Origin: a virus
IMG/VR virus record: IMGVR_UViG_3300034021_000409
Coordinates: 1 to 37,746 of that record
Direction: 5' to 3' (one strand)
Length of the DNA stretch: 37,746 nucleotides
The first letter of the stretch is position 1. Each line of letters starts with the position of its first letter. Shown in pieces: positions 524 to 37,746 of the stretch. A model generated the notes under the pieces. That model saw only the letters and a list, made by a program, of their open reading frames with translations. It was not told where the DNA came from and made no database searches. The translations under genes were made by a program, and so were the position numbers.

Positions 524-528
524 TTTAT

Positions 529-534: not shown

Positions 535-535
535 A

Positions 536-2824: not shown

Positions 2825-2850
2825 ATAGGTAAAAAATAATTATTTGTTTA

Positions 2851-2891
2851 ATAGAAAAAATTAACTTCAAAAAGGAAATTTTTGAAATTAA
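2851..2891 (-). terminator. Possible A/T-rich intrinsic terminator between helicase and nrdA
   Basis: On the minus strand arms at 2891-2879 and 2873-2861 form a 13-bp stem with one U-G wobble and a 5-nt loop, followed directly by a run of six T (2860-2855). It lies after the helicase stop and before nrdA. The stem is nearly all A/T, so its strength is uncertain; it may only attenuate read-through. Confidence 0.4.
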
Positions 2892-2927
2892 ATTTTGATG
2901 TTTTTTAGTTTAACTTAATATATAAGT

Positions 2928-14788: not shown

Positions 14789-14789
14789 A

Positions 14790-15086
14790 TTAAGAATTTA
14801 TTAATGTAAAATTTTGTAAAATTGTTTGTATATCTGTTGGTATTCTTAACTGTTTGTTTATATCCAAACTAAGTTTACCTTTACCTAAATTGTTTGCAAC
14901 TGCAATTATCCACCATAAACTCACATCCTTATAATATCTATAAGCTATTTGGTCAATATAATCATTATCAGATACAGTAATATAAATATCACTAGGAGAT
15001 TCTGGTATAGATGGATACAATAAAGTTTTATATACCCTTTTTCCATCCCATCTCTTATCTATTGTTGTATAGTCATATCTATTCAT
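14790..15086 (-). CDS. 53: Baseplate wedge / LysM-like protein, T4 gp53-like
   Basis: Small 98-residue baseplate protein with a LysM-like fold. The core reads VSDNDYIDQIAYRYY, then DVSLWWIIAVANN, and closes with the LRIPTD strand, the pattern shared by T4 gp53 and the gpX/LysM proteins of other contractile tails that clamp tail-tube or wedge components. It lies between the two large baseplate proteins, 1 nt upstream of the hub-like gene and 26 nt after the 846-residue gene. The family is fairly clear; whether it is the exact gp53 counterpart or a gpX-type tail protein cannot be decided from sequence alone. Confidence 0.75.
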   Translation of the reverse strand: MNRYDYTTIDKRWDGKRVYKTLLYPSIPESPSDIYITVSDNDYIDQIAYRYYKDVSLWWIIAVANNLGKGKLSLDINKQLRIPTDIQTILQNFTLINS

Positions 15087-15112
15087 ATTATAAAATTTTG
15101 CCTTGTTTATTT

Positions 15113-17653: not shown

Positions 17654-17657
17654 ATGA

Positions 17658-20408
17658 TTATGTTAAACTTGATTGCATTGCTAATCCGCCTGAATCCAAT
17701 CTGAATCCTACATTCTTAGAAAGACCCGTTATCATTTTTTGACCATCCAAATAAACGTTGAGTGATATATTATTCATACCTTCTTTAATGCCTTGTTTTA
17801 CCGCTTCAATTATTGCGGTTTGATTGCCAGTTGACTCATTATTTATTTTATTAACTGTATTCGTTGTTTCTGGAATATTTGGTGTAGGTTGCAATACACT
17901 AGCAACATTAGTTGTATCAATTGTGGGTAAGTATTTAAATTTTGCAATTGATTCAAGTGAGGCAGCAAGTATTGAAAATTGAGCAACAATTTTTTGTAAA
18001 TCATTTAATGGAAAATCATTTATTGCGCTTTTTAATGAAACAAATACTCCGGCTAAATTTAATGCAGTAAATGTAGATACTTCTTTACTGTATGTAACTA
18101 ACGCAGATACTGCTTTTAGTAACCCTTCACCAAATAAGCTTACACCTTTACCGGCATTTAAAAATCCATCTCCAATAAGTTTAACACCATATGCAGCTCC
18201 AACAAATAAACCAACCAGTCCTGCTAACACTAAACCAACCACAGCAAGTTCAGGAGCAAGAGGTATAGCTGCTGCACCAGCAGCTGCTAAACCAAGAATT
18301 AAAGATGTTAGTCCTTCTCCTAATGCAGGTCCAAGCGTCTTTAAACTTCTTGCAATAATTATAAATCCAGCAACCAATCCACCTAAAACTACTCCCGCTT
18401 TTGCAAGATCATCCCAACCAATATTTTTAAATTTTTCAAGTTCAGGAACTATAATTTTAAAAGCAACTGCTAAAGATATTAATACTATAGCTGCGGCTCC
18501 AGCTTCTTTTAAATCCATACCACCAAAAAGTCTTTTAAAGAATGATTCTTTTGTTCCACCAGGAACATTTGATATATCAGGAGCTTTTAATCCGCCAAAA
18601 GACTTTTTAAATGATTTAATACTACTAATAGCTATTTTCATTAGTTTAATAAATCCATATATGCTAGCGACTCCTAATATTGCACCAAATGCACCACCAC
18701 CACCAACGTCTGATATAGCCTTCAATGTACTATTCACTCCCTTTAAAATAAGTTCAATTATAGGAAATAGAAGTTTACTGGTTTCAAGTATTAATCCTTT
18801 AATTCTTGCCATCATTTCTTCAGTTTCTTTTAAATTGATAACATCTTTTACTCTTTGTTCTCTTGCAGCTGCTGTGTTTTCTAATACTGCACCTGATTGT
18901 CCAGTTAATTTTTTATATTCTTGAACCATTTTTTTTGCTTCATCACTACCACTTATTTCTAGTGCTGCTAAATCTTCTCTGATTTGTAATTGTTTTTGCA
19001 AATCAGTCAAAGACAAACCAGTTGATTTTGCAATAGCTTCTTTTTGAAAAATATCTAATTTATTAAAATCTCCTATATTTTTTACAACTTTAAAGATTTC
19101 ATCATATCCTTCTTGGATTTTACCTGTATAAAATAATTCTCTAGCCTTTTGGAAACTAATATTAGATCCTAATAATACACTTGCTTCAATTTCATCTGTT
19201 ATACTTTCTTGGAAATCTAACATCTTTCTTCCAATTTCAGCCACTTTTTCCAAATCAGTACCCAATCTTCTTGCATATACTGCGGCTTTTACTAGTTGTT
19301 CTGCACCACCTTTAATCATTCCTCTAGCCTTGTCACCTGCTTTTGCAACATCATCCATTACTTTTGCAAGTGGTACACCAGCTGCTTTTGATAAAGCAGA
19401 AGCAAAGTATACTACTTTAGTTGCTTTAACCATATCAATTTTACCAAATGACATCAATGTCATTAGACTGTCTGTTAGTTCTTTGTTACCAACACCCAAT
19501 TGTTTTGATATTAATGTTATATCTTCTCCAGTTTTTTCACTAAACAATGTTAAACTTCCAAATGCATCAACCATATTAGTTACAGTAGCCGCAGCATCTT
19601 CAGCTGTCACACCATACTTTGCTAAATTAACCGCAGTGTTTTTTATAAATGTATTTAATTTTTCTGCTTCATCTTTTAATAAACCAAAAGATTTAATTGT
19701 TTTTATAAATGCCGTTTGAGTCTGATCAAATGTATCATAAACAGTTTGAAAAACAGAATATATTATACCAATTGTCATTTTGGCACGTAAACTCAATTGC
19801 TCTAATCCTCTAGCTACTGTTGGTATTTTACCAAAAATACCAAGTGATGATTCAAATGCGTTAAATCCAGATTTAGATTCCAAAGATTGATTAAATGCTT
19901 TTTGTTTTTGATTTAAATCAACATACGCTTCTGCTTCATTTTGTATTGCTTCTGCACTTTTAATACGATAATTTAATGCAAGTGTAGCAGCTGCAAGATC
20001 TGCTTTAATCTGATCTACATTGATAATAGTACCAGTAGGATCTAAGGCAGAAATGCCACGAAGGTTAGTTTGCAATCGTATTACCTCATCTTTTAATTGA
20101 TCTACTATTGTTCTAGCTGCTGAAAATCTCTCTTCAAAATCTTTCATTATCTTTCTATCAAAAACCTGCGCACCAAGTTTAGTGCCATTTACTGCATTTT
20201 TAATTTTATCAAAATTCTCAGCCATTTTCTCTACTATTTCATCACCAAAACTCAAGCTTTGAATCAACCGTTGAGTTGCGTTTGCTGTTGATGTGAGTGA
20301 TTTATTTATTTCACTTGCAATATTTTGTATAGCCTGTTGCGTTGCTTGCGCAGTAGGTAAAGCCTGTCTTAATATCTTAGCTAAATCTTGTGGATCTAAT
20401 TGTGCCAT
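17658..20408 (-). CDS. Tail tape measure protein
   Basis: Sets tail length and is ejected ahead of the DNA. The 916-residue protein has the usual layout: a long helical N-terminal half with many Ala/Gln/Lys heptad-like stretches, then several hydrophobic, Gly/Ala-rich segments between residues about 570 and 745 (for example GAAAIVLISLAVAF, VVLGGLVAGFIIIA and LVLAGLVGLFVGAAYGVKLI) that could insert in the host membrane, and a short C-terminal domain (ISLNVYLDGQKMI, a beta hairpin common at tape measure C-termini). It directly follows the gp26-like chaperone pair, the expected order. It is short for the largest tape measures, which implies a tail of moderate length. Confidence 0.88.
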   Translation of the reverse strand: MAQLDPQDLAKILRQALPTAQATQQAIQNIASEINKSLTSTANATQRLIQSLSFGDEIVEKMAENFDKIKNAVNGTKLGAQVFDRKIMKDFEERFSAARTIVDQLKDEVIRLQTNLRGISALDPTGTIINVDQIKADLAAATLALNYRIKSAEAIQNEAEAYVDLNQKQKAFNQSLESKSGFNAFESSLGIFGKIPTVARGLEQLSLRAKMTIGIIYSVFQTVYDTFDQTQTAFIKTIKSFGLLKDEAEKLNTFIKNTAVNLAKYGVTAEDAAATVTNMVDAFGSLTLFSEKTGEDITLISKQLGVGNKELTDSLMTLMSFGKIDMVKATKVVYFASALSKAAGVPLAKVMDDVAKAGDKARGMIKGGAEQLVKAAVYARRLGTDLEKVAEIGRKMLDFQESITDEIEASVLLGSNISFQKARELFYTGKIQEGYDEIFKVVKNIGDFNKLDIFQKEAIAKSTGLSLTDLQKQLQIREDLAALEISGSDEAKKMVQEYKKLTGQSGAVLENTAAAREQRVKDVINLKETEEMMARIKGLILETSKLLFPIIELILKGVNSTLKAISDVGGGGAFGAILGVASIYGFIKLMKIAISSIKSFKKSFGGLKAPDISNVPGGTKESFFKRLFGGMDLKEAGAAAIVLISLAVAFKIIVPELEKFKNIGWDDLAKAGVVLGGLVAGFIIIARSLKTLGPALGEGLTSLILGLAAAGAAAIPLAPELAVVGLVLAGLVGLFVGAAYGVKLIGDGFLNAGKGVSLFGEGLLKAVSALVTYSKEVSTFTALNLAGVFVSLKSAINDFPLNDLQKIVAQFSILAASLESIAKFKYLPTIDTTNVASVLQPTPNIPETTNTVNKINNESTGNQTAIIEAVKQGIKEGMNNISLNVYLDGQKMITGLSKNVGFRLDSGGLAMQSSLT

Positions 20409-23201: not shown

Positions 23202-24710
23202 ATGGCTAGATCTAAAAATTCAAAAAACTGGTTATCTTTAAACTGTAAACATTGTAATAATTTGTTTGAATGTAGAGTGAGCAAACCAAAGATCTTTTGT
23301 AGCAAGAAATGTAGTAATAGTGATAATTCAACAAAACAAAAAATAATTGATGGTCAGAAAAAAACTTTTGATGAAAAATACGGTGGTCACCCAATGACTA
23401 CAGATGTTGTAAAATCTAATTTTAAATCTGCAATTGTTAAAAAATATGGAGTTGATAGTTACAGTAAATTGCCTGAATATAAAGAGAAGGTAAAACAAAC
23501 TCTTCTACTAAAATATGGATCTGAAAGTTATATAAATGTAGAAAAAATAAAATCTACTATGATGGATAGATATGGAGTGGACAATGCAGCCAAGATAAAA
23601 TCTGTCTTAGATAAAAGATCAGTTAGTAAGAAATCAAACCACTATGAATTTCTAGTAAATTACTGTAATAGTAACAAATTACAATTTCTATGTGATGAGG
23701 TGGATTACAAAGGTTATCACTTTAGTAACATTTATAAATTCAAATGTGACGTATGTAATAAAACATTAGAATCTACGGTTTATAACTTAAACAACTTGTT
23801 TTGTGATTATTGTCATCCAGAAAAAATCACTACTGTTGAAAATCATTTTTACAATTTTTTACAAGAAATTTTACCAAAAGATGCTGTTATTAAAAGAAAT
23901 GATAGAACAGTATTAAATGGCAAAGAATTGGATTTTTATATTCCAGAATTAAAAATTGCGTTTGAAATTGATGGATTATACTGGCACAGTGAAAACGGTG
24001 GTGGTATCAATAAAAACTATCATTTGAATAAAACAAAATCTTGCAGTTTTTATGGTATATCACTAATTCATATTTTCGAAAATGAGTGGATCAATAAAAC
24101 AGAAATTGTAAAATCAATTGTCAAAACACTGTTGAAAACCAATACACTATTTAAAATTAATGCTAGAGATTGCATTATTAAAGAAGTAAATGAAACTGAA
24201 AAAAATAAGTTTTTAAATGACAATCATTTACAAGGTGAAGATAAGTCTACAGTTAAATTAGGATTGTATAATAAAAATGATCTGGTTAGTATTATGACAT
24301 TTAGAAAAACTTCCCGTTTTGATAAAACAAGTGATTGGGAATTAGTTAGATTTTGTAATGCAATTAATACTACAGTTAATGGTGGTGCAAGTAAATTATT
24401 AAAACATTTTATCAAACATTATAATCCAAAAAATATAGTAAGTTATAGTGACAGAAGATATTTTACCGGCAAAATATATGAAACTTTAGGATTCAATTTT
24501 GTAAGTCATACACCACCTAATTATCATTATCTTATAAATAATTATAAAGATATCAGACACCGCATGAGTTTTCAAAAACACAAATTAGAAAAAATATTAA
24601 AAATATACAACCATTCATTAAGTGAATGGGAAAATATGAAAAATAATGGTTATGATAGAATTTGGGATTGCGGCCACGGCAAATATTTCCTTAAGATTCT
24701 TTCAAACTAA
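23202..24710 (+). CDS. Free-standing homing endonuclease, EDxHD (Vsr-like) family
   Basis: A 502-residue mobile DNA endonuclease on the opposite strand to its neighbours. Residues 15-37 form a Cys-rich finger (CKHC, C24, C33, C37), followed by four DNA-binding repeats with a KYG(V/S) core between about residues 50 and 140, and a second Cys cluster (CDVC, CDYC). The nuclease core is ELDFYIPELKIAFEIDG followed by LYWHSE (E242, D244, E255, H262), the hallmark of the Vsr-like EDxHD group typified by I-Bth0305I. The C-terminus (LVRFCN, GGASKLLKHF, SYSDRRYFTGKIYETLGF) is a GNAT-like module often attached to such phage enzymes. Its 3' end overlaps the convergent nucleotidyltransferase gene by 20 nt. 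The 116-nt gap upstream has a possible -10 box but no Shine-Dalgarno. Confidence 0.88.
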   Translation: MARSKNSKNWLSLNCKHCNNLFECRVSKPKIFCSKKCSNSDNSTKQKIIDGQKKTFDEKYGGHPMTTDVVKSNFKSAIVKKYGVDSYSKLPEYKEKVKQTLLLKYGSESYINVEKIKSTMMDRYGVDNAAKIKSVLDKRSVSKKSNHYEFLVNYCNSNKLQFLCDEVDYKGYHFSNIYKFKCDVCNKTLESTVYNLNNLFCDYCHPEKITTVENHFYNFLQEILPKDAVIKRNDRTVLNGKELDFYIPELKIAFEIDGLYWHSENGGGINKNYHLNKTKSCSFYGISLIHIFENEWINKTEIVKSIVKTLLKTNTLFKINARDCIIKEVNETEKNKFLNDNHLQGEDKSTVKLGLYNKNDLVSIMTFRKTSRFDKTSDWELVRFCNAINTTVNGGASKLLKHFIKHYNPKNIVSYSDRRYFTGKIYETLGFNFVSHTPPNYHYLINNYKDIRHRMSFQKHKLEKILKIYNHSLSEWENMKNNGYDRIWDCGHGKYFLKILSN

Positions 24711-26457: not shown

Positions 26458-27396
26458 TTAAGCAAATTTAAATTTTTTATAACATGAAAAATTTTCTTTA
26501 TTGTTATATACTTTTACTTTATAATATGCATAATTACATAAATTGTTTACTACAAAATAAATACTTCGATCTGGCCTATCATTTAAAAAGTATATAGAAT
26601 CATATTTCTGTAACAGAAACTCTTCGTTTTCCTTAACTCCTAATATTTCTACAGAGTATTCGCCGGTATTATAAAACCACATACATAAAAACGATCCGTA
26701 TTGGAATAATATTTTTAATTTATTATTGTTATATTTTTCATATACATCAACTAATCTTTTAAATTTTGTTGGTGTATCTCCACCGGCATGGTATATGAAT
26801 AGTGTATCATATGAAAGATTATGATAACTATATGGTATGATTTTAACGTTTTCTTGAATTAAACTGTTTTCTAGATCAGACAGTTCTTTGTTAATTAAAT
26901 TTTGACTTGTTAGTTTAGGCAACAGTAGTTGATCTAATGCGGTTTGTTCATGAAAATGACTATATGCATATAAGTTATAATTTTCCCACAGTTGATTCAA
27001 CGTATCAATTGACCACTTAGAATTTTTCCATACCATAAATCCTGTACTTGTAATTGTATACATGATTTTATTTTCAGATAACGCATTTTTTGAAAGTATT
27101 AAATCAATTCCATCTTCTATAAATTCTTCAATTTTAATATTTTTTAAAAAAATAGCATCAGCATCTATCCAAACAACATAATCATATTGAGACAAATATT
27201 TTTGGATTAACGGTATTTTGATCCACGAATTCTGTCTATCAACTAATGGTTCTTGTAAAATTTCACATACAAAACTATAATTATTTTTATTTGCGTATTT
27301 CAAATTGATTTCAGATGTAAATTTTCCAAAATCACAATTGCCATAATTGTTCCAAACTACGTTTTTTGTGAAGGCAGTTAAGATTAAAATATTCAT
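26458..27396 (-). CDS. Glycosyltransferase, GMA12/MNN10-type GT-A fold
   Basis: A 312-residue GT-A enzyme. The catalytic DxD is in YDYVVWIDADAIFLKN (about residues 70-85), and the downstream MVWKNSKWSIDTLNQLW and FHEQTALDQLLLP segments match the galactosyltransferase GMA12/MNN10 family (GT34-like), which uses nucleotide sugars. The last 85 residues or so (from YGSFLCMWFYN to the C-terminus) are not part of that family; they are strand-rich and may be an accessory beta domain. It is the distal gene of the minus-strand glycosyltransferase operon, 1 nt after the previous one. The sugar donor and acceptor cannot be read from sequence. Confidence 0.82.
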   Translation of the reverse strand: MNILILTAFTKNVVWNNYGNCDFGKFTSEINLKYANKNNYSFVCEILQEPLVDRQNSWIKIPLIQKYLSQYDYVVWIDADAIFLKNIKIEEFIEDGIDLILSKNALSENKIMYTITSTGFMVWKNSKWSIDTLNQLWENYNLYAYSHFHEQTALDQLLLPKLTSQNLINKELSDLENSLIQENVKIIPYSYHNLSYDTLFIYHAGGDTPTKFKRLVDVYEKYNNNKLKILFQYGSFLCMWFYNTGEYSVEILGVKENEEFLLQKYDSIYFLNDRPDRSIYFVVNNLCNYAYYKVKVYNNKENFSCYKKFKFA

Positions 27397-27397
27397 A

Positions 27398-28585
27398 TTA
27401 TTGATGTATGATCGTAAAATTTAAATGTCTAAAATAAGAATAATAGGAAAAATTATAAAAATATTTAGATATAATTGATTTAAATTTATTTAACTTTTCA
27501 TTCAATAACTCATCTCTAGATGTATTTGTTAAATGTACACTTTCATTTAAATAGTACATTTTAATGCACATTTTATTATTTAAAGATTTTAATTTATCTA
27601 GTACGTCACACAAACCATCTTCACTTTCAAAATAATTTAATATAATTGTATAATGGTCAGATCCATGACATTTATTAAATTCAATGTTTTTATCAATATA
27701 AATTTCTTTTATTTTTTCTTTTTGATCTACATCTAGATTTGGTGAAATTATAGATATGTTTTTAAAATCTGTATTCATGCCGAAATACATGATTGAATTC
27801 AATTCTTTATAAATTGAATTATAACTATATATAGACTCATAATTTGATGATATTGATTTTTCTAATCCAATATCAAAATTTTTATTATATGTCAAATCAT
27901 GACTTGAACTTTTCGTACTTGAAATTGAATCGTTTCTAAGTGTCCATGTATAAAGATTTCTTGGTACATGCAGCCAATTACCATATCCATTCATGTATAA
28001 CATTCTATAAGAATCTTCACATACATCATTAAACGTATTAACATTAAATTTTAAATCTTTAATATTTTTAAAACATCTTCCGTGTCCAAAACAATAATAG
28101 TTTAAATTGTTACAATAATCGATTTGTGGATGAAAATGATTTAATTTATCAGTCAATTTTTCTTGATTAAGAATATAACCGAAAGAATGAACAGATCCAT
28201 CAGTTTCATTGATTCTTGTGAAATCACATGTTATTATAGAAAGATCATTGTATTTTTTGATTAAATTATTATAAACAGTCAATATGTTTTTGTCTACCAA
28301 GTCGTCACTATCAACCAACAATACATACTCATATTCAGATGGTATAAATTTATTTGGCTGCCAATACATTTCCATTTTATGATTTTGTTCAACATAAACA
28401 ATTTTAGTATTATCTTTAATTTTTTCTAATAAATTTTGTTTTGTATCATCATTGCTATAATCATCAGTAACAAACCAAGTAAAGTCTGTATAATCAATTG
28501 ACATTATATTTTCATACAACCTATCAATATACTTTGATGTATTGTAGAAAGATGTATAAATTGCAAATTTAAGCTGATGGTTCAT
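27398..28585 (-). CDS. Glycosyltransferase family 2
   Basis: A 395-residue protein with an N-terminal GT2 domain: FAIYTSFYNTSKYIDRLYEN, then WFVTDDYSNDDT and the DxD-like LLVDSDDLVDKN at about residue 92. A typical GT2 acceptor region follows to about residue 230 (NDVCEDSYRMLY holds the ED pair often used as catalytic base). The C-terminal 160 residues are unassigned and Asn/Lys/Ser-rich, with two stretches that could form an extra alpha/beta domain (ISIISPNLDVDQKEKIKEI; HYTIILNYFESEDG). It overlaps the BAHT-like gene by 17 nt. Donor and acceptor are unknown; membership of the cassette suggests building of an oligosaccharide. Confidence 0.85.
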   Translation of the reverse strand: MNHQLKFAIYTSFYNTSKYIDRLYENIMSIDYTDFTWFVTDDYSNDDTKQNLLEKIKDNTKIVYVEQNHKMEMYWQPNKFIPSEYEYVLLVDSDDLVDKNILTVYNNLIKKYNDLSIITCDFTRINETDGSVHSFGYILNQEKLTDKLNHFHPQIDYCNNLNYYCFGHGRCFKNIKDLKFNVNTFNDVCEDSYRMLYMNGYGNWLHVPRNLYTWTLRNDSISSTKSSSHDLTYNKNFDIGLEKSISSNYESIYSYNSIYKELNSIMYFGMNTDFKNISIISPNLDVDQKEKIKEIYIDKNIEFNKCHGSDHYTIILNYFESEDGLCDVLDKLKSLNNKMCIKMYYLNESVHLTNTSRDELLNEKLNKFKSIISKYFYNFSYYSYFRHLNFTIIHQ

Positions 28586-29675
28586 ATTTCATTATGTTTT
28601 TAATATTGCCAATTACTACATCTGATGTAATTGATTTTGAACATTCAAATTGTCTATCTGTATTTTTTAATTTAGGACACCAATTCCAATCTCCTTTGTC
28701 AAATGTATACTTTGGATTGTTCCAACAACCATGACAAACATTTTTATTAATGATTCTAAAAGGGGTGAAAAACTCATTTTTTTCTAAACTCATGCCACTT
28801 ATTAAGATGGAAGGTTTGTTCAATGCCCAAGATAACCATGATACACCAGAAGATAGTCCAATATAAAAATCACAGTTATATATCATGTTAATAACAACAT
28901 TTAAATCGGTAGAATTACATAAAATAACATCTAAGTTAGGATCATCCAATAATTCAACTTCTTCTTTTTGAACAATTACGACTTTATATCCGTTAGAATT
29001 CAAAAAAGAAACTACATCTCTCCAGCCATTTTCTGTATTCCATTCTTTACATGCAGCCGTTGATTTTGTAGAGATACACACATATTTTTGTTTAATTGGT
29101 CTGTCTTTGTTTAATATCTTAAGAGGAGGCTTAATTTCTCTATAATCGATTCCTAAAATATTTGCACAAATTTCTTGATTATTCAACAATTTCCAACTTT
29201 TTCTTTCTCTAATTTCATCGTTAAAACATCCTATACTGTAAGATGCATATAAATTATGCACTTCCTTTCCTGGTTCAACAAATTTTATATGTGGATAAAT
29301 GTCTCTAAATATTTCATTTTGATATGTAGAGCAATATACCGTGCAATTATGTTTTAGTCTAAATTCTTCAACAAATGGCATCCACGAAATATTATCTCCC
29401 AATGATCTACTATCAAACCAAATAAACACATTTTTCGAAGTTGCATTATAATCGATTTCACGAATTAAATTTTTTGATTTAAAATCAATTATTCTTATTC
29501 TATAATCGATAAAGTAACAGTATGAACTTTTTACCCACATATTAGATGTAATGACATCATCATGTAGTATTTCATTTGTTTCTTTATTGATAAATTGAAC
29601 ATAATATTTATTTTTATTATTATTGTCCAATATTTCACAAAAAGCGCCGTTGATAAAATTTATATTAATTTTCAT
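28569..29675 (-). CDS. BAHT-like protein O-heptosyltransferase
   Basis: This 368-residue protein follows the bacterial autotransporter heptosyltransferase family (TibC/Aah type) along its whole length. N-terminal residues 1-80 are the beta-rich domain (FINGAFCEI, YYVQFINKETNEI, WVKSSYCYFIDYRIRI). The GT9-like fold starts at FIWFDSRSLGDNISWMPF and continues with CISTKSTAACKEWN and FYIGLSSGVSWLSWAL. The C-terminus has the four-cysteine metal finger: C314, C317, C333 and C345 (C-x2-C-x15-C-x11-C, in CHGCWNN, WNWCPKL and FECSK). Known members form a metal-finger oligomer and attach heptose from an ADP-heptose donor to serines of repetitive surface proteins. Here the neighbouring target candidate is a Ser-rich fibre. 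The gene overlaps both neighbours. Confidence 0.86.
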   Translation of the reverse strand: MKININFINGAFCEILDNNNKNKYYVQFINKETNEILHDDVITSNMWVKSSYCYFIDYRIRIIDFKSKNLIREIDYNATSKNVFIWFDSRSLGDNISWMPFVEEFRLKHNCTVYCSTYQNEIFRDIYPHIKFVEPGKEVHNLYASYSIGCFNDEIRERKSWKLLNNQEICANILGIDYREIKPPLKILNKDRPIKQKYVCISTKSTAACKEWNTENGWRDVVSFLNSNGYKVVIVQKEEVELLDDPNLDVILCNSTDLNVVINMIYNCDFYIGLSSGVSWLSWALNKPSILISGMSLEKNEFFTPFRIINKNVCHGCWNNPKYTFDKGDWNWCPKLKNTDRQFECSKSITSDVVIGNIKNIMKYEPSA

Positions 29676-30667
29676 ACAATGTTATTGTTTATTAAATATG
29701 TTATTGTATTTGTGACATCTTCAATTGAAGAATGACATTCAAACTTAGGTTTGTTTTCTAGACAATCTGTTAGAGGTGGTATACTATTCATTGTTCCCCA
29801 TTCTTTAATGCTATATTTCATATTATTTGTACAAAATAAATCACATTTACCTTTTACATAAATGTATTTGTAATTTCTAGTTCCTTTTCTATATGGAGAT
29901 GAAAATCTAGGATCTTTTGCACTACCTAATTGAATTATAAACGTATCAGTTGTTCCCGCAAGATGTAAAAGACCAGAATCAAGAGTCACAAATAATTTTG
30001 CGTTATTTAATAAATGCCATGTATCACTTAAATCCAAAGTATCTGATAAATCCAAACCATATAAATTTTCAAATTTGTATATGAATTTTTCAGTAGTAAC
30101 ATTTTTTTCTTTTTGAATTGTAGTTTTTCCTGTTATTACCGTAAAAATATTATTCTTCGATAAAAAATTAATTAACGATTGCCAATTCTCATGACTCCAT
30201 GTTCTATTTGGCCAATTAGTAGATGGATGAATCACAACATAATCTTTTGGTAAATTAACAGAATTTGAAAAATCATTTGGAAAAAAATCACAATGTAATT
30301 CATCTTCAAATAACTGAAATCCTAAATCATTTGCATGGACTTGTCTTAAATCTACATGTTGAAACTTTCTTTCAACACCTTGAGAATTTTTTAATCCAGG
30401 AAAAAGATAAGTCTGATAATATTCTATTTCATTCACAATAAGATTATTCCAATCTTTGTTTTTAAATTTATCATGAAACTCTTCATAAGAATATAAAACG
30501 TCAATATAAGGACTATTAATAAAAACTCTTTTAGATTCTTCAGGAACAACAACATTTATTTTTTTATCATATACTGAAAAAACTTTACGTAATGATGGAG
30601 TAAAACAAATAGTATCACCTAACGTTTTACAATTAACCGATAAATAAACATCTCGCATAACTTTCAT
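29672..30667 (-). CDS. GT9 heptosyltransferase-like glycosyltransferase with C-terminal Cys finger
   Basis: A 331-residue GT-B enzyme of family 9, related to ADP-heptose:LPS heptosyltransferases. Visible signatures: CKTLGDTICFTPSLRKVF at the N-terminus, VIHPSTNWPNRTWSHENW (donor region), and LFVTLDSGLLHLAGTTDT, the Asp-Ser-Gly-x-x-His donor motif. It lacks the N-terminal beta domain of the BAHT-like neighbour but ends with four cysteines, C275, C279, C302 and C311 (C-x3-C-x22-C-x8-C, last one in KFECHSS), a variant of its finger. The two genes overlap by 4 nt and are probably old paralogues. It may add a second sugar or work as a pair with the BAHT-like enzyme. Confidence 0.85.
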   Translation of the reverse strand: MKVMRDVYLSVNCKTLGDTICFTPSLRKVFSVYDKKINVVVPEESKRVFINSPYIDVLYSYEEFHDKFKNKDWNNLIVNEIEYYQTYLFPGLKNSQGVERKFQHVDLRQVHANDLGFQLFEDELHCDFFPNDFSNSVNLPKDYVVIHPSTNWPNRTWSHENWQSLINFLSKNNIFTVITGKTTIQKEKNVTTEKFIYKFENLYGLDLSDTLDLSDTWHLLNNAKLFVTLDSGLLHLAGTTDTFIIQLGSAKDPRFSSPYRKGTRNYKYIYVKGKCDLFCTNNMKYSIKEWGTMNSIPPLTDCLENKPKFECHSSIEDVTNTITYLINNNIV

Positions 30668-32068
30668 TTAAATAGAATTGGTTTGGAACAAAACAATAGT
30701 TTTATTTAAATTATAAATAGTAAATGTTTTTTTACCATTAAACTCGGCACCAAACCAATATTCAACGTTTTTTACCATAGTTAAATCATCAAAAAAACAA
30801 ACATCACCTTTTTCATTTTTAATTTCTAGATAAACCTTACATGAATCAAAATAATCTTGTGAAAAGAAAACAAAATTATGATTTTCTGAAAATCTATGAA
30901 ATTTTACATATCCATTATTACTGAGTGATGTAGAACCATATCTTTTATTAATTATATCATACAAATCTCTAGATACTTTATTCCATGAATAATTTGTTAT
31001 AAATTTTTGTGATTTTTCTAAATGAATCTTCTTATATGTTGAATAATTTTTATAAGAATCCATGATGACTTCACTCAGCATTTTAAAATCTGGTTCATCA
31101 AGATATCCATCAGAAAAATATTCATCTTCTTCACTATAAGCCGGTACCTTTTTTTGTATGTCTACTCCTAGTGGATATTCACCAGCAAATTCAACTTGAC
31201 CTGATCCTTTGGAATATATTGACGGAATTCCACAAGCAAACGCTTCAGCTAATGGTATATTCCACCCTTCTCCTCTTGAACAACTCAGAAAAACATGACA
31301 ATTCTTTAATAAATTTAAATAAACATTTCGATCTGGAAAATTATGAACTATAATTTTTGGTGAATATAAATTGTGTTTTTTAAATCTTTCTGATGCTGGT
31401 ATCCAAATTGGATAGTGTTTGTCTACGCTTACATGAAGTTCTACGTCATCAACATGTTCAAACGTTTTTATAAAACATTCGATTATTTCTTTAGTTGATT
31501 TTCTAAATCCCCATGTACCAACAAGAAAAAATTTAAATTTATCAGACTTTTCTTGTTGAATAGGAAAACAATCTGGATCAATTCCTTCATGTACAATATC
31601 AATTTTACTTTCGTCCAATCCTTGTTGTATTAGACACTCTTTTTGCCACTTGGTTAAAACTATATTACTGTCGTAAGTTTTTAATTTATTTAAAAAATTA
31701 ACATCGTATCTATCACTCTCCCACATTGTAAATGCGATTTTTGGTCCATAATATTCATCATAAAAATATAAATGATTGTGTTCGGCTGAAATTAGGTGAA
31801 TTTTTTCTCCTATATGAGTATCTAAAACCGTAGAGTTCCAAGGCAAAGGATAGTCGCTCCAAATTTTATTATTTTTATAATGAGACCACAACGTTTGTTC
31901 TGATAATATTTGTTTATCTAAATCATTTAAATACGAATCTAATTTTGGATCTAATGTAAAATTTCTTACATAAACTTTAGCGTGATTGGATAATCCTCTA
32001 AAAAACCCTCTGGTATGATTATTGAATCCCGTAGAACCAAGATATGCACCGTGACATTTAATAAACAT
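30668..32068 (-). CDS. Glycosyltransferase family 4 with C-terminal beta domain
   Basis: A 466-residue GT-B enzyme. The GT4 C-terminal Rossmann half shows KFFLVGTWGFRKSTKEI, a central NFPDRNVYLNLLKNCHVFL, and the donor-site SRGEGWNIPLAEAFACG containing the E-x7-E motif. The N-terminal half begins FIKCHGAYLGSTGFNNHTRG, with the glycine loop of retaining GT-B enzymes. Residues about 385-466 are extra and strand-rich; KVYLEIKNEKGDV plus a DD pair resemble the N-terminal beta domain of the BAHT-like protein. It is the first gene of the minus-strand glycosyltransferase operon, abutting the GT9 gene with no gap. Donor unknown. Confidence 0.87.
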   Translation of the reverse strand: MFIKCHGAYLGSTGFNNHTRGFFRGLSNHAKVYVRNFTLDPKLDSYLNDLDKQILSEQTLWSHYKNNKIWSDYPLPWNSTVLDTHIGEKIHLISAEHNHLYFYDEYYGPKIAFTMWESDRYDVNFLNKLKTYDSNIVLTKWQKECLIQQGLDESKIDIVHEGIDPDCFPIQQEKSDKFKFFLVGTWGFRKSTKEIIECFIKTFEHVDDVELHVSVDKHYPIWIPASERFKKHNLYSPKIIVHNFPDRNVYLNLLKNCHVFLSCSRGEGWNIPLAEAFACGIPSIYSKGSGQVEFAGEYPLGVDIQKKVPAYSEEDEYFSDGYLDEPDFKMLSEVIMDSYKNYSTYKKIHLEKSQKFITNYSWNKVSRDLYDIINKRYGSTSLSNNGYVKFHRFSENHNFVFFSQDYFDSCKVYLEIKNEKGDVCFFDDLTMVKNVEYWFGAEFNGKKTFTIYNLNKTIVLFQTNSI

Positions 32069-32147
32069 ATATATAACAGTTTCAATACATATATTATCGA
32101 ATTAAAAATAATTAAATTTAAATAAGATATACTATATATAATTATCA
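32069..32147. promoter_or_regulatory. Divergent intergenic region between the two glycosylation operons
   Basis: These 79 nt separate the minus-strand and plus-strand glycosyltransferase operons and must hold the start signals of both, unless transcripts read in from further away. The sequence is about 90% A/T. On the plus strand TATACT at 32128-32133 is a possible -10 box; on the minus strand several TATA-like hexamers occur. Neither first gene has a Shine-Dalgarno sequence. No clear operator or palindrome is seen. Confidence 0.3.
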
Positions 32148-32720
32148 ATGAAAAATCTTTACCATATAGTTACCAGATTTACAAGAAACGATGTTAAATG
32201 GTTGGATAACTGTTATAAAAGTATTATAAATAATGATATAAACTATAAATGGTACATAATCGGAATCGATGATTACGTTGACGTTTCTAAATATAGAAAT
32301 ACAATATATCTAAAATTTCCTGATAAACCTAATTGGAAAAATTTATGCAATTATTATTTAGATGTTGTTCCAGACGAAGGTCAGTGGTTTTTCATATTAG
32401 ATGATGATAACCTATTACATCCAAATTTTAATCAACTAGACAAAAAAATACAACCAAATTCAAAACTAATAATAGTAAGTCAATTATATGAACCAAATAA
32501 GATTAGAATCGCATGTGAACAAAATATAATTGTTCAAAAAATAGATATGGCTCAGTTTTGTATTAAACGAGAAATAATAAACGATTTAAGATTTTGGGAA
32601 ATATATAGAGGTGATGGGTATTTCATTATGGAACTATATATAAGATGTAAGGAATATGAAATCCAAACTCAGATTATACCTGAAATATTTTCTTATTATA
32701 ATGCACAACATTGGATATGA
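32148..32720 (+). CDS. Small GT-A (family 2-like) glycosyltransferase domain
   Basis: A 190-residue protein containing only the core of a GT-A fold. It opens with YHIVTRFTRNDVKWLDNCYK and has the metal site as WFFILDDDNLLHPNF (about residues 80-95), typical of GT2 enzymes; an acidic residue in GDGYFIMELY is a candidate base. It is shorter than most GT2 enzymes (usually 230 or more), so it may be a minimal enzyme or need a partner. It is the first gene of the plus-strand part of the island, and its stop overlaps the start of the oxygenase (ATGA), which couples the two. Confidence 0.78.
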   Translation: MKNLYHIVTRFTRNDVKWLDNCYKSIINNDINYKWYIIGIDDYVDVSKYRNTIYLKFPDKPNWKNLCNYYLDVVPDEGQWFFILDDDNLLHPNFNQLDKKIQPNSKLIIVSQLYEPNKIRIACEQNIIVQKIDMAQFCIKREIINDLRFWEIYRGDGYFIMELYIRCKEYEIQTQIIPEIFSYYNAQHWI

Positions 32721-33415
32721 TAAACACTGATAGTATAGATATATTAAAATGTAAAGAACAATTTGAAAATCATAATAAAGTAATAATTAATGATTTTTTA
32801 TTAACCGATTATGCTGAATCTTTACATCAATTTTACAATGAAAAAATGCCATCTGATTGGTGGTTTGCATCGTCGTATCCATCCTTTACTAAAGGGGAGT
32901 CTCATGAGTTTATACAAGTAACTGAAGACAATTATCACACAATACAAATAAATAAATCATATTCAAATAAGTGTTTGAATGATCATATATATTCATATTT
33001 CTTCTATAGAACTATGCCACACATTGATGGATGTTCGTGTTTACATTGTTCTATTCATAGTTTTTTGTCTAGTGAAAAGATTATAAATATTTTAAATGAA
33101 ATTACAAATTTAAATTTAAAAAAATCAACGACTATATTTGCAAACAAATATACATCAGATTGTTTTCTAGCAACTCATACAGATGACGGAAACGGAAGAC
33201 TTGCATTTGTTTTACATTTAACAAAAAATTGGAATGCATGTTGGGGAGGGATGTATATGGATCACACAGATCCAAACAATATAAAAACTGTGATTCCAAG
33301 TTTTAATAAAATGGTAATGTTTAAAGTAGGAAATCATGAAACACCTCACAGTGTGAGTTGTGTAACAAATAATTTAACAAGAAAAAGAATATCAGTTACA
33401 GGATGGTTTGATTAA
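32717..33415 (+). CDS. 2-oxoglutarate/Fe(II)-dependent oxygenase (prolyl hydroxylase-like)
   Basis: A 232-residue protein of the 2OG-Fe(II) dioxygenase superfamily, most like prolyl 4-hydroxylases. The double-stranded beta-helix carries the iron triad: H154 and D156 in LATHTDDGNGRL, and H211 in NHETPHSVSCV; R222 or R224 (RKRISVTGWF) would bind 2-oxoglutarate. AFVLHLTKNWNACWGGMYMD is the typical strand pair between them. I chose the ATG at 32717, which overlaps the upstream stop as ATGA; a TTG 6 nt upstream is less likely. Two central cysteines (CSCLHC) are unusual. Hydroxylation of a sugar, of the fibre or of another protein is possible; the setting among glycosyltransferases suggests a modification step before or after glycosylation. 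Confidence 0.85.
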   Translation: MINTDSIDILKCKEQFENHNKVIINDFLLTDYAESLHQFYNEKMPSDWWFASSYPSFTKGESHEFIQVTEDNYHTIQINKSYSNKCLNDHIYSYFFYRTMPHIDGCSCLHCSIHSFLSSEKIINILNEITNLNLKKSTTIFANKYTSDCFLATHTDDGNGRLAFVLHLTKNWNACWGGMYMDHTDPNNIKTVIPSFNKMVMFKVGNHETPHSVSCVTNNLTRKRISVTGWFD

Positions 33416-33418
33416 TTT

Positions 33419-34474
33419 ATGAAAAAATTCTGCATATTAACTTTAACTCATGAATCATTAAATAGACCAACATATCTCCGTGATACAGTTGATTCTTTTT
33501 TAAACAATACTGAAGTGGATCAAGTTATTGATTGGTTCATATACATTAATAAAACAAATCAAGAATTTATATCAGTGTGTAATGAATTGATCGATAAATA
33601 TAAAGATAAAGTCGATTTCAAAATTGTACATTCTAACGTAAATAATGGAGTTGGGTATGGAATCAATCGATTAAATGATCTATCAATTGATTATGAATAT
33701 AGTCTTTTTCTTGAAGGGGATTGGAAATGTATGTCGCCGGACATAAGTGGTCAACCAAAGACATGGTTGAAAACAAGCATTGAGTTATTGGACGAAAACC
33801 AAGATACAGATGCGGTATTTCTAAGAAGGTATATTAATGATTACGAAAGCAGATCCACAGGTATCTTTGCGTATTATTCGGTTAAAAACTGTAAAGTCGA
33901 ATCAAAAAATGGACTCAAATATTTTATTGTTCCTGTTAATTTATATACAAATAATCCATTGATTAGAAGAAATAAATATTTTTATGACAACAAAACTTTT
34001 CCATTACAAGAATTTTTTGATTCGGATGGCAATCCAACAGAACTAAAAATAGATAATATAACACACAACGATTGGGGACAAGCAGAAATTAAAGCACAAC
34101 CAACAGATAAAAAAATTAAATATATAATGTTAGTTTGGGGAAATTTTTGTCATATAGATAATATGGGCGAGTTTGATAAACAAAATCAAAAGTTTATAGA
34201 ACAAGAATCTAAATCGGGATGTAAAAAATATAACAATGGACAATCAAAGTGTAAATTTGGATATTATAATATATCTCCACATTTTTGTATATTATGTAGT
34301 AAAACTTTCTCAGAATTAGAAATAGAAAACGTTTTTGCTAAAGAATCTTATTTATTAGATACATTAGAAATTAATAAAAATGAATGGACAAAAGAACAAA
34401 AATTAAAATTTATAAAAGATCAAAACTTAACTCCAGAATTCGATTTAGAACCTTTTATTAACTATTTAATATGA
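33419..34474 (+). CDS. Putative GT-A glycosyltransferase with C-terminal Cys cluster
   Basis: A 351-residue protein. The N-terminal 120 residues look like a GT-A fold: CILTLTHESLNRPTYLRDTV, then WFIYINKTN, GVGYGINRLNDLS and YSLFLEGDWKCM, where the usual DxD is replaced by EGD. The central part (AVFLRRYINDYES to NDWGQAEIKA) resembles a family 2-like acceptor domain. The C-terminal 110 residues contain a Cys group (SGCKKY, SKCKFGY, HFCILCSK) that could bind zinc, and a helical end. It lies 3 nt after the oxygenase and overlaps the next gene by 4 nt. The family is inferred from pattern, since the metal motif is atypical; it could have lost activity. Confidence 0.65.
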   Translation: MKKFCILTLTHESLNRPTYLRDTVDSFLNNTEVDQVIDWFIYINKTNQEFISVCNELIDKYKDKVDFKIVHSNVNNGVGYGINRLNDLSIDYEYSLFLEGDWKCMSPDISGQPKTWLKTSIELLDENQDTDAVFLRRYINDYESRSTGIFAYYSVKNCKVESKNGLKYFIVPVNLYTNNPLIRRNKYFYDNKTFPLQEFFDSDGNPTELKIDNITHNDWGQAEIKAQPTDKKIKYIMLVWGNFCHIDNMGEFDKQNQKFIEQESKSGCKKYNNGQSKCKFGYYNISPHFCILCSKTFSELEIENVFAKESYLLDTLEINKNEWTKEQKLKFIKDQNLTPEFDLEPFINYLI

Positions 34475-35136
34475 TTAGTTTTATAATGCCAACAATATGG
34501 AAAGCGGAAGAAATACACAAATCAATCGAACAATTTAAGCGTGTAAAAGATAAAAACGCAGAATTAATTATAATTGATAATACACATTCTGATTTTCATG
34601 ATAATGATTCAAGAATCATAGTCGTTAAATGTAGTAATAATATATTTGTAAATCCTGCTTGGAATCTAGGTGTAAAATTAGCAAAAAACAAATATATCTG
34701 TTTAATAAACGATGACATTTACTTTAACTATGTAACGTTATTTAATAATTTCTTAAAATTTATTAATCAAGATCCAAACTTTGGATTAATTGGATATAAT
34801 GAGAATGCAAGATTAAGAGATAATAGTGTCATAATAAACAATGATGAAGATGAACTGATACTTGTGGATACTACTGGTATAGTTCCATTTGGTTATGGAT
34901 GTTGTATATTTCTAAAAAAAGAAGACTATTTTGAAATATATGATGAATGTAAAATATTTTATGGTGACACAATTTTAATTGTATCAATCGTTGACATAAA
35001 AAGAAAACGGATGTATTATATAGATAATTTAATAAGTATTGGACGAATAAGCGTGTCAAGTGACGATTATCCAAAAAATATGGAAACTGACGAAATTTCG
35101 TTTTATAAACAATACAAAATCATAAAAAAATTATGA
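34471..35136 (+). CDS. Glycosyltransferase family 2, compact
   Basis: A 221-residue GT2 protein. The start ISFIMPTIWKAEEIHKSIEQ, the nucleotide-binding LIIIDNTHSDF, NPAWNLGVKLAKNKYICLIN and the DxD-like NDDIYF are all present; YGCCIFLKKEDYFEIYDE carries a typical acceptor-side motif (a Gly-x-Cys-Cys-x-Phe form). It ends soon after the catalytic domain, like a minimal rhamnosyl- or hexosyltransferase. It is coupled on both sides by 4-nt overlaps (ATGA), so it is translated in step with its neighbours. Confidence 0.85.
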   Translation: MISFIMPTIWKAEEIHKSIEQFKRVKDKNAELIIIDNTHSDFHDNDSRIIVVKCSNNIFVNPAWNLGVKLAKNKYICLINDDIYFNYVTLFNNFLKFINQDPNFGLIGYNENARLRDNSVIINNDEDELILVDTTGIVPFGYGCCIFLKKEDYFEIYDECKIFYGDTILIVSIVDIKRKRMYYIDNLISIGRISVSSDDYPKNMETDEISFYKQYKIIKKL

Positions 35137-36353
35137 AAAACAGCAAAATTACTGTTTGTATATTTGGAAAACAAATAGAAACTTTATTTTCAGAAAAAAA
35201 CGCTCCTGAATATGAAGAAAATACATTTATACTTTTAAATTATGAAAATGATCATCAGTTAAATGATATAATAAAAAAACATGATCCTCATGTGTATATT
35301 ACATTTGGCGATTGGCAAAAATATAAATTATTATGCAACGCTCCATATGAAATAAGAAAAAGATGGATGAATTATCCTACTGATACAAATTTAAATCAAA
35401 TAGGAGAAGACGCATTAAATTGTTATGTACATTCTACATTCAATTCTGATAATAATGAATCTCCATTGGTATCAGTTTTTACTCCCGCATATAGATCCTC
35501 ACAAAAAATATTTAGACCTCTTCAATCACTTTTAAACCAAACGTATAAAAATTGGGAATGGATTATTATAGACGATTCTGATGATGACGACAAAACTTTT
35601 AATTTATTAAAAGAAATAAGTGAAATAGATTATAGGATAAAGGTATTCAAAAATGCAAGAAAATCTGGAAGTATAGGTGAATTAAAAAGATGGGCAGCAG
35701 GTCTTTGTTCTGGAGAATATTTATGTGAATTAGATCACGACGATGAATTGACAATTAAATGTCTTGAATATGTAACAAAAACATTCAAGAAATACCCAGA
35801 CGCAGGTTTTGTTTATACAGACTCCGCTGAAGTATATGAAGAAGATGGATCTAATGTAAAATATGAGGAAGGATTTTGTCTAGGATATGGTAGTTATAGA
35901 CAAGAGTTTTATAATGGTAAAATATATGAAGTTGTAAACGGTCCAAAAGTAAATCCAAAAACAATTAGACACATAGTTGGTGTACCTAATCATATAAGAT
36001 GTTGGAGAAGAGATTCTTATTTTAAAGTAAATGGACATAATCCACATCTACATGTTTGCGATGATTACGAATTAATAATAAAAACGTTTCTTACAACAAA
36101 AATTGCATATATACCAAAATTAGGATACATTCAATACAGAAATAAAGAAGGTAATACCACTACTTCAAGAAACAAAGAAATACAAAGATTAACCAGAATA
36201 ATCAAAAATTCATATGACCATCTAATTCATAAAAAATTTGTGGAATTAGAAATCAATGACTTTTTATATGATGAAAAGACACAATCTTCAAATATAGATG
36301 GACCAAATCCACTATTTGAACAACATGTCTGTATCATCTCTGATGTTAATTAA
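35133..36353 (+). CDS. Glycosyltransferase family 2 with an N-terminal extra domain
   Basis: A 406-residue protein. Residues 1-105 are an unrelated small domain (VCIFGKQIETLF, DPHVYITFGDWQKYKLL) of the kind found in front of GT2 domains in phage and bacterial surface-glycan enzymes. The GT2 domain begins SVFTPAYRSSQKIFRPLQSL and has WIIIDDSDDDDKT, the DxD-type CELDHDDELTIKCL, and later HVCDDYELIIKTF, holding the usual catalytic Asp. It is complete. It ends convergently against the fibre gene: the two stop codons overlap by 4 nt (TTAA), leaving no terminator between them. Likely the last transferase of the plus-strand operon. Confidence 0.87.
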   Translation: MKNSKITVCIFGKQIETLFSEKNAPEYEENTFILLNYENDHQLNDIIKKHDPHVYITFGDWQKYKLLCNAPYEIRKRWMNYPTDTNLNQIGEDALNCYVHSTFNSDNNESPLVSVFTPAYRSSQKIFRPLQSLLNQTYKNWEWIIIDDSDDDDKTFNLLKEISEIDYRIKVFKNARKSGSIGELKRWAAGLCSGEYLCELDHDDELTIKCLEYVTKTFKKYPDAGFVYTDSAEVYEEDGSNVKYEEGFCLGYGSYRQEFYNGKIYEVVNGPKVNPKTIRHIVGVPNHIRCWRRDSYFKVNGHNPHLHVCDDYELIIKTFLTTKIAYIPKLGYIQYRNKEGNTTTSRNKEIQRLTRIIKNSYDHLIHKKFVELEINDFLYDEKTQSSNIDGPNPLFEQHVCIISDVN

Positions 36354-37746
36354 TTATTTTTTAATACTTTAATCTCTTCCTTTAAAGTATCAACCTCAGT
36401 CTTTAATACTTCAATGTCTTCAATTGCTTTCTTCAACGCACTCCACATTGTTGGTACAAAGCTCCACGTATCAAGACTTTGATAAATTGGATCTCCATTT
36501 TCATCAACTGCATTTTTTTCTCCAAATACAGCTTGTTTCAATCCACCATCTTGTACTTCATGTGCAATAAATCCAGATTCAACTTTTTGTAATGGATCAT
36601 TAATACGAATAAATGTTTTTGGTTGAATGTTTTTAATAATTCCCCATCCATCATTATAGTTTTGTATATTGGTTTTTAATCTATAGTCAGATTGTGGCCC
36701 GGCTGGTCCGATTGGTCCTTGTCTTCCTTGAGGCCCTTGTGGTCCGATTGGTCCTTGTCTTCCTTGAGGCCCTTGTGGTCCAGAAACATTGCTTGGAGCA
36801 CCACTACTTCCGCTTGTTCCGCTTGATCCACTTGTTCCACTTGATCCGCTACCTCCACTTGATCCACTTGTTCCACTTGATCCGCTACCTCCACTTGAAC
36901 CGCTTGTTCCGCTTGATCCGCTACCTCCACTTGAACCGCTTGTTCCGCTTGATCCGCTACCTCCACTTGAACCACTTGTTCCACTTGATCCGCTACCTCC
37001 ACTTGAACCGCTTGTTCCGCTTGATCCGCTACCTCCACTTGAACCACTTGTTCCACTTGATCCGCTACCTCCACTTGAACCGCTTGTTCCGCTTGATCCG
37101 CTACCTCCACTTGAACCGCTTGTTCCGCTTGATCCGCTACCTCCACTTGAACCACTTGTTCCACTTGATCCGCTACCTCCACTTGAACCGCTTGTTCCGC
37201 TTGATCCACTTGGTCCGATTGGTCCTTGTCTTCCTTGAGGCCCTTGTGGACCAGAAACATTGCTTGGAGCACCACTACTTCCGCTTGTTCCACTTGATCC
37301 ACTTGTTCCACTTGATCCACTTGTTCCACTTGATCCGCTACCTCCACTTGATCCACTTGTTCCGCTTGATCCACTTGAACCACTTGTTCCACTTGATCCG
37401 CTACCTCCACTTGAACCGCTTGTTCCGCTTGAACCGCTTGGTCCGATTGGTCCTTGTCTTCCTTGAGGCCCTTGTGGACCAGAAACATTGCTTGGAGCAC
37501 CACTACTTCCGCTTGTTCCGCTTGATCCACTTGAACCGCTTGTTCCGCTTGATCCACTTGAACCGGATGTTCCGCTTGATCCGCTTGAACCACTTGTTCC
37601 GCTTGAACCGCTTGAACCACTTGTTCCGCTTGAACCGCTTGGTCCGATTGGTCCTTGTCTTCCTTGAGGCCCTTGTGGTCCAGCTACGCTACTTGGAGCA
37701 CCACTACTTCCACTTGTTCCGCTTGATCCACTTGAACCGCTTGTTC
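36350..37746 (-). CDS. Collagen-like tail fibre with C-terminal S74 chaperone, 5' end outside the window
   Basis: The last 465 codons are visible; translation continues beyond 37746. From the edge to about 36692 the reading is almost pure Gly-x-y: GSSGGSGSSGTS triplets with GPQGPQGRQGPIGP blocks, broken by GAPSNVSG-type interruptions near 36790, 37265, 37495 and 37695. Then comes the Peptidase_S74 intramolecular chaperone: SDYRLKTNI with the Ser (36689-36691) and Lys (36674-36676) dyad spaced as in endosialidases, IKNIQPKTFIRIN, GFIAHEVQ, and a helical end with VLKTEVDTLKEEIKVLKNN. The S74 domain trimerises the fibre and then cuts itself off. This is a receptor-binding or whisker-like fibre. 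Other frames through the repeat are open but give only artefactual Val/Gln/Glu-rich repeats. Confidence 0.9.
   Translation of the reverse strand, partial: TSGSSGSSGTSGSSGAPSSVAGPQGPQGRQGPIGPSGSSGTSGSSGSSGTSGSSGSSGTSGSSGSSGTSGSSGSSGTSGSSGAPSNVSGPQGPQGRQGPIGPSGSSGTSGSSGGSGSSGTSGSSGSSGTSGSSGGSGSSGTSGSSGTSGSSGTSGSSGAPSNVSGPQGPQGRQGPIGPSGSSGTSGSSGGSGSSGTSGSSGGSGSSGTSGSSGGSGSSGTSGSSGGSGSSGTSGSSGGSGSSGTSGSSGGSGSSGTSGSSGGSGSSGTSGSSGGSGSSGTSGSSGGSGSSGTSGSSGGSGSSGTSGSSGTSGSSGAPSNVSGPQGPQGRQGPIGPQGPQGRQGPIGPAGPQSDYRLKTNIQNYNDGWGIIKNIQPKTFIRINDPLQKVESGFIAHEVQDGGLKQAVFGEKNAVDENGDPIYQSLDTWSFVPTMWSALKKAIEDIEVLKTEVDTLKEEIKVLKNN
36843..37202. repeat. Ten tandem 36-nt repeats with a 180-nt higher-order duplication
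   Basis: Units start at 36843, 36879, 36915, 36951, 36987, 37023, 37059, 37095, 37131 and 37167. Each codes, on the minus strand, four Gly triplets of the fibre. Two versions alternate, A (with ACCACTTGTTCCACTT) and B (with ACCGCTTGTTCCGCTT); the order is A'BBAB ABBAB, where A' has one change. So a block of five units was duplicated recently. Further partial copies lie at 37332 and about 37395. Confidence 0.9.

Follow-up and report, generated by a model that had tools for sequence, protein, structure and literature searches.

The closest described relatives of the system reported here are the bacterial autotransporter heptosyltransferases (BAHT) TibC and AAH. In TibC, D110 is the catalytic base, T226, K230, R286 and W305 contact the donor, with Arg286 touching the adenine in keeping with specificity for an adenosine diphosphate (ADP)-sugar, and C339, C342, C358 and C370 form an essential iron finger (PMC4358343). 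Enzymes of this family assemble into a dodecameric ring and transfer heptose to Ser. We analyzed a TibC-like gene, GTc, on a 37,746-bp IMG/VR virus record (IMGVR_UViG_3300034021_000409; this whole stretch of DNA is called the window), which is incomplete at both ends. GTc lies in an island of ten packed genes, five on the minus and five on the plus strand, that ends at a gene for a collagen-like fibre with an S74 domain. As for TibC and AAH, the proposed substrate is a repetitive surface protein, often encoded next door, and GTc appears from its sequence to share the TibC fold over residues 21-360, together with the catalytic base, Lys, Trp and iron-finger Cys. Unlike them, it belongs to a phage-encoded clade whose partner is a collagen-like/S74 tail fibre rather than a beta-helix autotransporter, and in which fusion to a GT4, GT2, GT25 or methyltransferase domain is frequent. 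Our results suggest that the island is probably a virion-glycosylation module that O-glycosylates the fibre.

Several other systems share parts of this arrangement. Phage-encoded glycosyltransferases modify virion proteins in mycobacteriophages (Freeman et al. 2023, as cited in PMC12619734); in those phages the C-termini of capsid and tail tube carry the modification, whereas we propose a long, repetitive fibre as the target and an initiating enzyme from another family. Mimivirus (PMC9546862, PMC8968730) encodes a collagen-like protein and enzymes able to oxidise and glycosylate it, but its sugars are linked to hydroxylysine, whereas the arrays of the window have no lysine and its oxygenase is of the prolyl-hydroxylase and not the lysyl-hydroxylase type. 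The BclA-type proteins of Bacillus are likewise prokaryotic Gly-X-Y proteins, with glycans thought to support the triple helix; however, they are spore glycoproteins for which the available part of PMC8968730 mentions no TibC-like enzyme, and Ser/Thr at both X and Y with rare proline is a feature of the fibre described here. Pelagimyophages, which are T4-like phages from aquatic habitats, likewise have a variable island with glycosyltransferases and fibres, their host-recognition cluster; PMC7029224 reads it as O-chain modification, and its available part describes neither the TibC-like enzyme nor a link of that enzyme to such arrays. The window fibre has both features of collagen-like phage fibres with an S74 chaperone, a Gly-X-Y run and a C-terminal S74 domain. 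The pairing of enzyme and array was not described in the open-access literature that we searched, a search that left most subscription journals and preprints outside.

GTc matched TibC (PDB 4rap) over nearly its full length (residues 21-360, phmmer E=3.9e-62), as against E=0.44 for lipopolysaccharide (LPS) heptosyltransferase I. Its D94, T206, K210 and W280 align with D110, T226, K230 and W305 of TibC, and its four cysteines (C314-x2-C317-x15-C333-x11-C345) have a spacing identical to that of the TibC iron finger. Among 108 phage TibC-like sequences, mostly environmental, the Asp base, the Trp and the four Cys were kept in all 108 and the Lys in 107. The N-terminal beta-barrel domain is less clear, as the TibC alignment begins at residue 21/38 and the Pfam TibC_1st match falls below cut-off. 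Catalysis and fold are probably retained in GTc. The equivalent of Arg286 was retained in 31/108 phage enzymes versus 70/72 bacterial relatives, being Val in the window GTc and in its relative L012, Pro in L005 and Ile in Microcystis phage Mel-JY01, so the donor nucleotide of the phage enzymes may differ from that of TibC. Because this residue is lost, GTc is best named only TibC/BAHT-like and not filed as an autotransporter heptosyltransferase, and its sugar need not be heptose; the heptose that the earlier note had proposed is therefore not supported. In a phylogenetic tree, the phage enzymes fell into one clade (104 phage and 3 bacterial sequences) with support 1.0. Pattern scans built from the alignment for distant TibC relatives recovered the same group only, and N-terminal patterns performed poorly.

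Two variants of the enzyme are recorded here in their own right. A shortened TibC-like paralogue of 277-278 residues (L012 13508-14344, L005 4259-5092) has no N-terminal domain and keeps the Asp base, Trp and four Cys but not the catalytic Lys, which is replaced by Arg. Seven TibC-like matches (G127, G164, G169, G171, G173, G178 and G188) carry a single in-frame TAA or TGA, which may reflect assembly error, decay or recoding in some phages.

The fibre next to the island is visible over 464 residues, its 5' end lying beyond the contig, and contains Collagen (PF01391, E=2.5e-33) and Peptidase_S74 (PF13884, 5e-7) domains. Since it contains exact tandem arrays and matches many PHROG tail-fibre families, the collagen-like match is not due to chance. 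Its 111 visible triplets comprise 46 GSS, 24 GTS and 12 GGS, the rest being other triplets; Ser/Thr occupies 70% of X/Y positions and occurs at both X and Y, proline is rare and lysine is absent. Across arrays near the enzyme (2,323 triplets), X was Thr or Ser in 87% and Y was Ser in 77.5%. All six Ser codons were in use in these arrays, which argues that serine is selected at the protein level. The contigs of the window (at 37746), L002, L003, L006 and L005 all terminate within the fibre array, and the repeat probably breaks assemblies; counts of enzyme with array are thus likely lower bounds.

We sampled the enzyme by scanning IMG/VR with a DNA pattern for the motif WCPxxKxTDR, which gave at least 117 loci among the matches listed, of which 114 were TibC-like and formed 69 groups at 80% identity. 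Arrays were detected with the DNA pattern (GGNWSNWSN)x4, which stands for (G-[S/T]-[S/T])x4, with the reversed pattern as control. In whole contigs, arrays were present in 28/47 enzyme-sampled contigs of at least 25 kb versus 0/32 PolB-sampled contigs (Fisher 5e-9), one of the 47 (L066) resting on a short edge match only; the reversed pattern had no match in these 47. After merging enzymes at 80% identity or more, about 26/36 groups had arrays. When only the DNA around each match was considered, arrays were found in 20/114 enzyme loci versus 0/120 PolB loci, again among the matches listed. Sampling from the other side gave a similar picture, with the enzyme in 22/48 array-sampled contigs versus 0/32 PolB contigs (Fisher 1e-6) and in 9/12 array-sampled contigs longer than 100 kb. 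Bacterial TibC-like loci had such arrays in 0/81. As a separate observation, the 735-kb huge phage LR756501.1 has 1,440 overlapping Gly-[S/T]-[S/T] array-pattern matches on one strand, so the Ser/Thr-rich arrays in this phage are extremely long or numerous.

The PolB set may represent a different kind of phage, and T4-like contigs sampled by their capsid are a better-matched control. Among 32 such contigs, 8 had the enzyme and 5 had arrays, and all 5 array-positive contigs were within the 8. Collagen-like fibres were frequent in these phages both with and without the enzyme, but Ser/Thr filled 76-98% of X/Y positions in fibres with the enzyme and 15-29% in those without, whose typical triplets were GPQ, GAQ, GQK and GAT. 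The exception, G109 (72% Ser/Thr without enzyme), is a fragment in which the array starts with the very first bases, so that the neighbourhood lies out of view. Because the enzyme and Ser/Thr-rich fibres tend to co-occur across environmental viruses, these phages probably sugar-coat their fibres. The earlier note had named the fibre as the substrate and suggested a search of related genomes for co-occurrence; a comparison of this kind, for the enzyme and Ser/Thr-rich arrays, found the association, lending strong comparative support to the fibre as the likely acceptor.

The enzyme gene lies directly beside the array fibre in L065, L114, L118 and L150, at a distance of 95 bp in L065 and converging on it with a 4-nt overlap in L114, the arrangement that GTi and the fibre show in the window. 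The two are also near each other in Mel-JY01, separated by a gene for a structural protein and a very short open reading frame; the fibre of this phage has about 200 Gly-X-Y triplets. A long N-terminal extension was present in 31/81 complete enzyme genes; among nine fusions examined, eight contained GT4, which in other phages is the most frequent fusion partner of the TibC-like domain, and others added GT2, GT25, FkbM or other methyltransferases. Mel-JY01 and LR756501 carry GT4-TibC-like fusions too. Given these fusions, the separate GT4, GT2 and TibC-like genes of the window look like a single pathway in unfused form. The Mel-JY01 fibre itself (L045, PP395634.1, 1-3052) appears misannotated: its plus-strand Gly-X-Y frame, bases 2-3052, covers antisense coding sequences at 1-651 and 739-2298 and a short in-frame coding sequence at 2519-3052.

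Near-identical phages carry the same island. In four divergent relatives (L005, L012, L013 and L014), most island genes have 58-86% identity to those of the window, whereas the adjacent flank (tail tube, NT5C-like, nucleotidyltransferase and p26167) is 88-100% identical. All four have a GT25 gene inserted between island and fibre (PF01755, E=1e-10 in L012) and the shortened second TibC-like paralogue, and a further contig, L035, joins the same flank to a partial TibC-like gene, a DegT aminotransferase and a hexapeptide acyltransferase. Because flanks are conserved while island content varies among relatives, the locus can be described as a variable glycan cassette beside a Gly-X-Y fibre. The neighbouring fibre of L012 is complete: its 2,275 residues include four arrays with 239 triplets in all, Ser/Thr at 67% of X/Y positions and S74 at the C-terminal end. 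Gly-X-Y is absent from the two fibres that follow on this contig. Gly-X-Y fibres with GSS/GTS triplets are retained in L002, L006, L012 and L013 and, more weakly, in L005, and the case that the earlier note would have counted as refutation, an island kept without a Ser/Thr-rich fibre, was absent among relatives with a visible array. On the contig of L005, an extra gene with three NUMOD3 motifs (L041 15826-16755) lies between an ssb-like gene and its neighbour.

From these findings we infer the following route. Before virion assembly, GTc would act in the cytoplasm and attach the first sugar to serines in the Gly-X-Y arrays of the neighbouring fibre, the near-constant Y-position serine being the most likely acceptor. 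The GT4, GT2, GT9 and GT34-like enzymes would then extend this sugar into a short glycan, yielding a long fibre shaft that is densely sugar-coated. The proposed benefit could be shaft stability, protease resistance, adhesion or masking.

A number of observations weigh against this interpretation. TibC modified Ser and not Thr, and its substrate is a beta-helix and not a Gly-X-Y protein (PMC4358343); GTc has lost the donor contact Arg286. L005 keeps the island, yet the visible part of its array is only 32% Ser/Thr. No enzyme was visible in 26/48 array contigs, including some of ordinary small-phage size (43-46 kb), and 19/47 enzyme contigs showed no array. Where arrays stood without the enzyme, few glycosyltransferases were nearby and a replacement phage enzyme was not evident. 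The enzyme excess in array-sampled over capsid-sampled contigs was not significant alone (22/48 vs 8/32, p=0.07), and 7/8 enzyme-positive capsid-sampled contigs belong to one capsid clade, which means that the p-values assume more independence than there is. This kinship concern is reduced, though not removed, by the wider enzyme sample, the huge phage LR756501 and Mel-JY01.

The main rival explanation is that the glycosyltransferases alter host surface glycans (LPS or O-chain) and so exclude competing phages, the fibre being adjacent only because the region serves host recognition. The glycosyltransferases of the pelagimyophage cluster have been interpreted in this way in the literature (PMC7029224); moreover, the GT9, GT2 and GT25 families contain LPS enzymes and GTi weakly matches GtrB-like PHROGs. 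We nevertheless consider it unlikely, since GTc is far nearer to TibC, a protein O-glycosyltransferase, than to the LPS enzyme, the presence of the enzyme tracks the amino-acid composition of the fibre, and the island has no flippase with multiple transmembrane segments and no GtrA-like gene, its enzymes looking soluble. Somewhat less probable still is that enzyme and Ser/Thr-rich arrays are merely co-inherited in some large aquatic phages and do not act on each other. The clustering of enzyme-positive capsids would fit this, as would the frequency of both traits among large aquatic phages and the occurrence of each on its own. However, the association recurs in T4-like and in huge phages, with arrays in 26 of about 36 enzyme groups that share less than 80% identity, the genes often adjoin, and related T4-like phages without the enzyme keep long collagen-like fibres made of other residues. 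Phage glycosyltransferases and 2-oxoglutarate (2OG) enzymes are known from DNA modification, a role also noted in PMC12619734, but a system that makes glycosylated hypermodified bases and uses the 2OG enzyme to oxygenate them is very improbable here. The 2OG gene resembles those of the protein hydroxylases OGFOD1/TPA1, the window has no gene recognisable as a base-hydroxymethylase or thymidine-modification gene, and the TibC-like catalytic domain is not known as a DNA glycosyltransferase.

The 2OG-Fe(II) oxygenase of the island keeps the HxD...H iron triad and the distal Arg in the window gene and four relatives. Homologues were present in 2/115 enzyme loci, apparently the window's own group, and in 0/120 array loci, among the matches listed, and we rejected the oxygenase as a general partner of the enzyme; a lysyl-hydroxylase route was rejected because the arrays have no Lys. 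Hydroxylation followed by glycosylation, the general route that had been suggested from the sequence, thus finds no support, and the oxygenase could target X-position prolines of GPQ/GPI segments.

The phage of the window is T4-like (nrdA, DnaB, UvsX, a gp19-type tail tube and a T4 baseplate protein), and its closest cultured phage by UvsX is Mel-JY01, at 49% identity. Coordinates (Table 1) bear out the layout first described, with five minus-strand and four plus-strand glycosyltransferases, an oxygenase, overlapping genes and an end at the fibre. Island neighbours overlap by 4-17 nt or are separated by 0-3 nt, except at the 79-bp gap between the two divergent operons, where no conserved motif was found; GTi and the convergent end of the fibre gene overlap by 4 nt (36350-36353). 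Of the nine glycosyltransferases originally counted, seven are above Pfam cut-off, while GTf and GTg, which have no Pfam match, are probable only. Their AlphaFold models (predicted local distance difference test, pLDDT, 57 and 48) are too weak for family naming; top PDB matches were mostly GT-A glycosyltransferases, none at E<=0.001. PHROGs has no family for most island glycosyltransferases. No clear transmembrane segment was found in the window enzymes, with one borderline stretch in GTh. Late-promoter motifs were not enriched (TATAAATA, 11 seen vs 7.6 expected; ATAAATA, 28 vs 32).

Table 1. Genes of the island and the adjoining fibre in the window.
Feature	Position	Strand	Evidence
GTa: glycosyltransferase, DAD motif	26458-27396	-	PF05637 (GT34-like) E=5.5e-7, PF03407 E=8e-6, above cut-off
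GTb: GT2 glycosyltransferase, DSDD motif	27398-28585	-	PF00535 E=4.6e-9
GTc: TibC/BAHT-like protein O-glycosyltransferase (predicted), key enzyme	28569-29675	-	GT9 by Pfam, above cut-off; phmmer to PDB 4rap E=3.9e-62
GTd: second GT9 (heptosyltransferase-family) glycosyltransferase	29672-30667	-	PF01075 E=4.5e-18
GTe: GT4 glycosyltransferase	30668-32068	-	PF00534 E=2.9e-8; phrog_2170 E=3e-28
GTf: probable GT-A fold glycosyltransferase, DDD motif	32148-32720	+	low-confidence model, Foldseek E ~0.01
2OG-Fe(II) oxygenase, OGFOD1/TPA1 (prolyl hydroxylase) type	32711-33415	+	PF13661 (2OG-FeII_Oxy_4) E=1.5e-17; PDB OGFOD1 E=2e-11
GTg: possible GT-A fold glycosyltransferase	33419-34474	+	low-confidence model; best matches TarP/AvpGT, E ~0.002
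GTh: GT2 glycosyltransferase	34471-35136	+	PF00535 E=4.5e-9
GTi: GT2 glycosyltransferase, DHDD motif	35133-36353	+	PF00535 E=9.9e-19
Tail fibre, C-terminal part (Gly-X-Y arrays and S74), proposed substrate	36350-37746	-	PF01391, PF13884; N terminus off contig

Two features elsewhere in the window also vary between phages. A homing-endonuclease-type gene at 23202-24710, antisense and between the tail tube and nucleotidyltransferase genes, is missing at the same place in L013, a natural empty site. The large proteins encoded at 12278-20408, of unknown family, differ between phages (p17658 down to 33-47% identity, p15113 to about 71-94%), whereas neighbouring genes are 99-100% identical, which suggests cassette swapping of another virion or adhesion module.

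Together, these results are also compatible with a broader and more tentative picture, in which aquatic phages possess a separate TibC-like clade that has moved from beta-helix adhesins to proline-poor Gly-Ser/Thr-Ser fibres and mostly to a new nucleotide-sugar donor, and that, with fused or neighbouring GT4, GT2, GT25 and FkbM enzymes, may build methylated oligosaccharides along the whole fibre. Such a substrate- and donor-switched clade would give phages an equivalent of mucin-like or BclA-like glycoproteins, with sugars that may stabilise the helix without proline. Fibre glycosylation is directly testable in the cultured phage Mel-JY01. If it is borne out, many environmental phages would bear heavily glycosylated fibres made by their own enzymes, the frequent 'LPS-type' glycosyltransferases of aquatic phages would have to be re-read, and models of receptor binding and fibre mechanics would be affected. 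A TibC-like enzyme together with Gly-[S/T]-Ser arrays would then serve as a sequence rule that predicts glycosylated virions.

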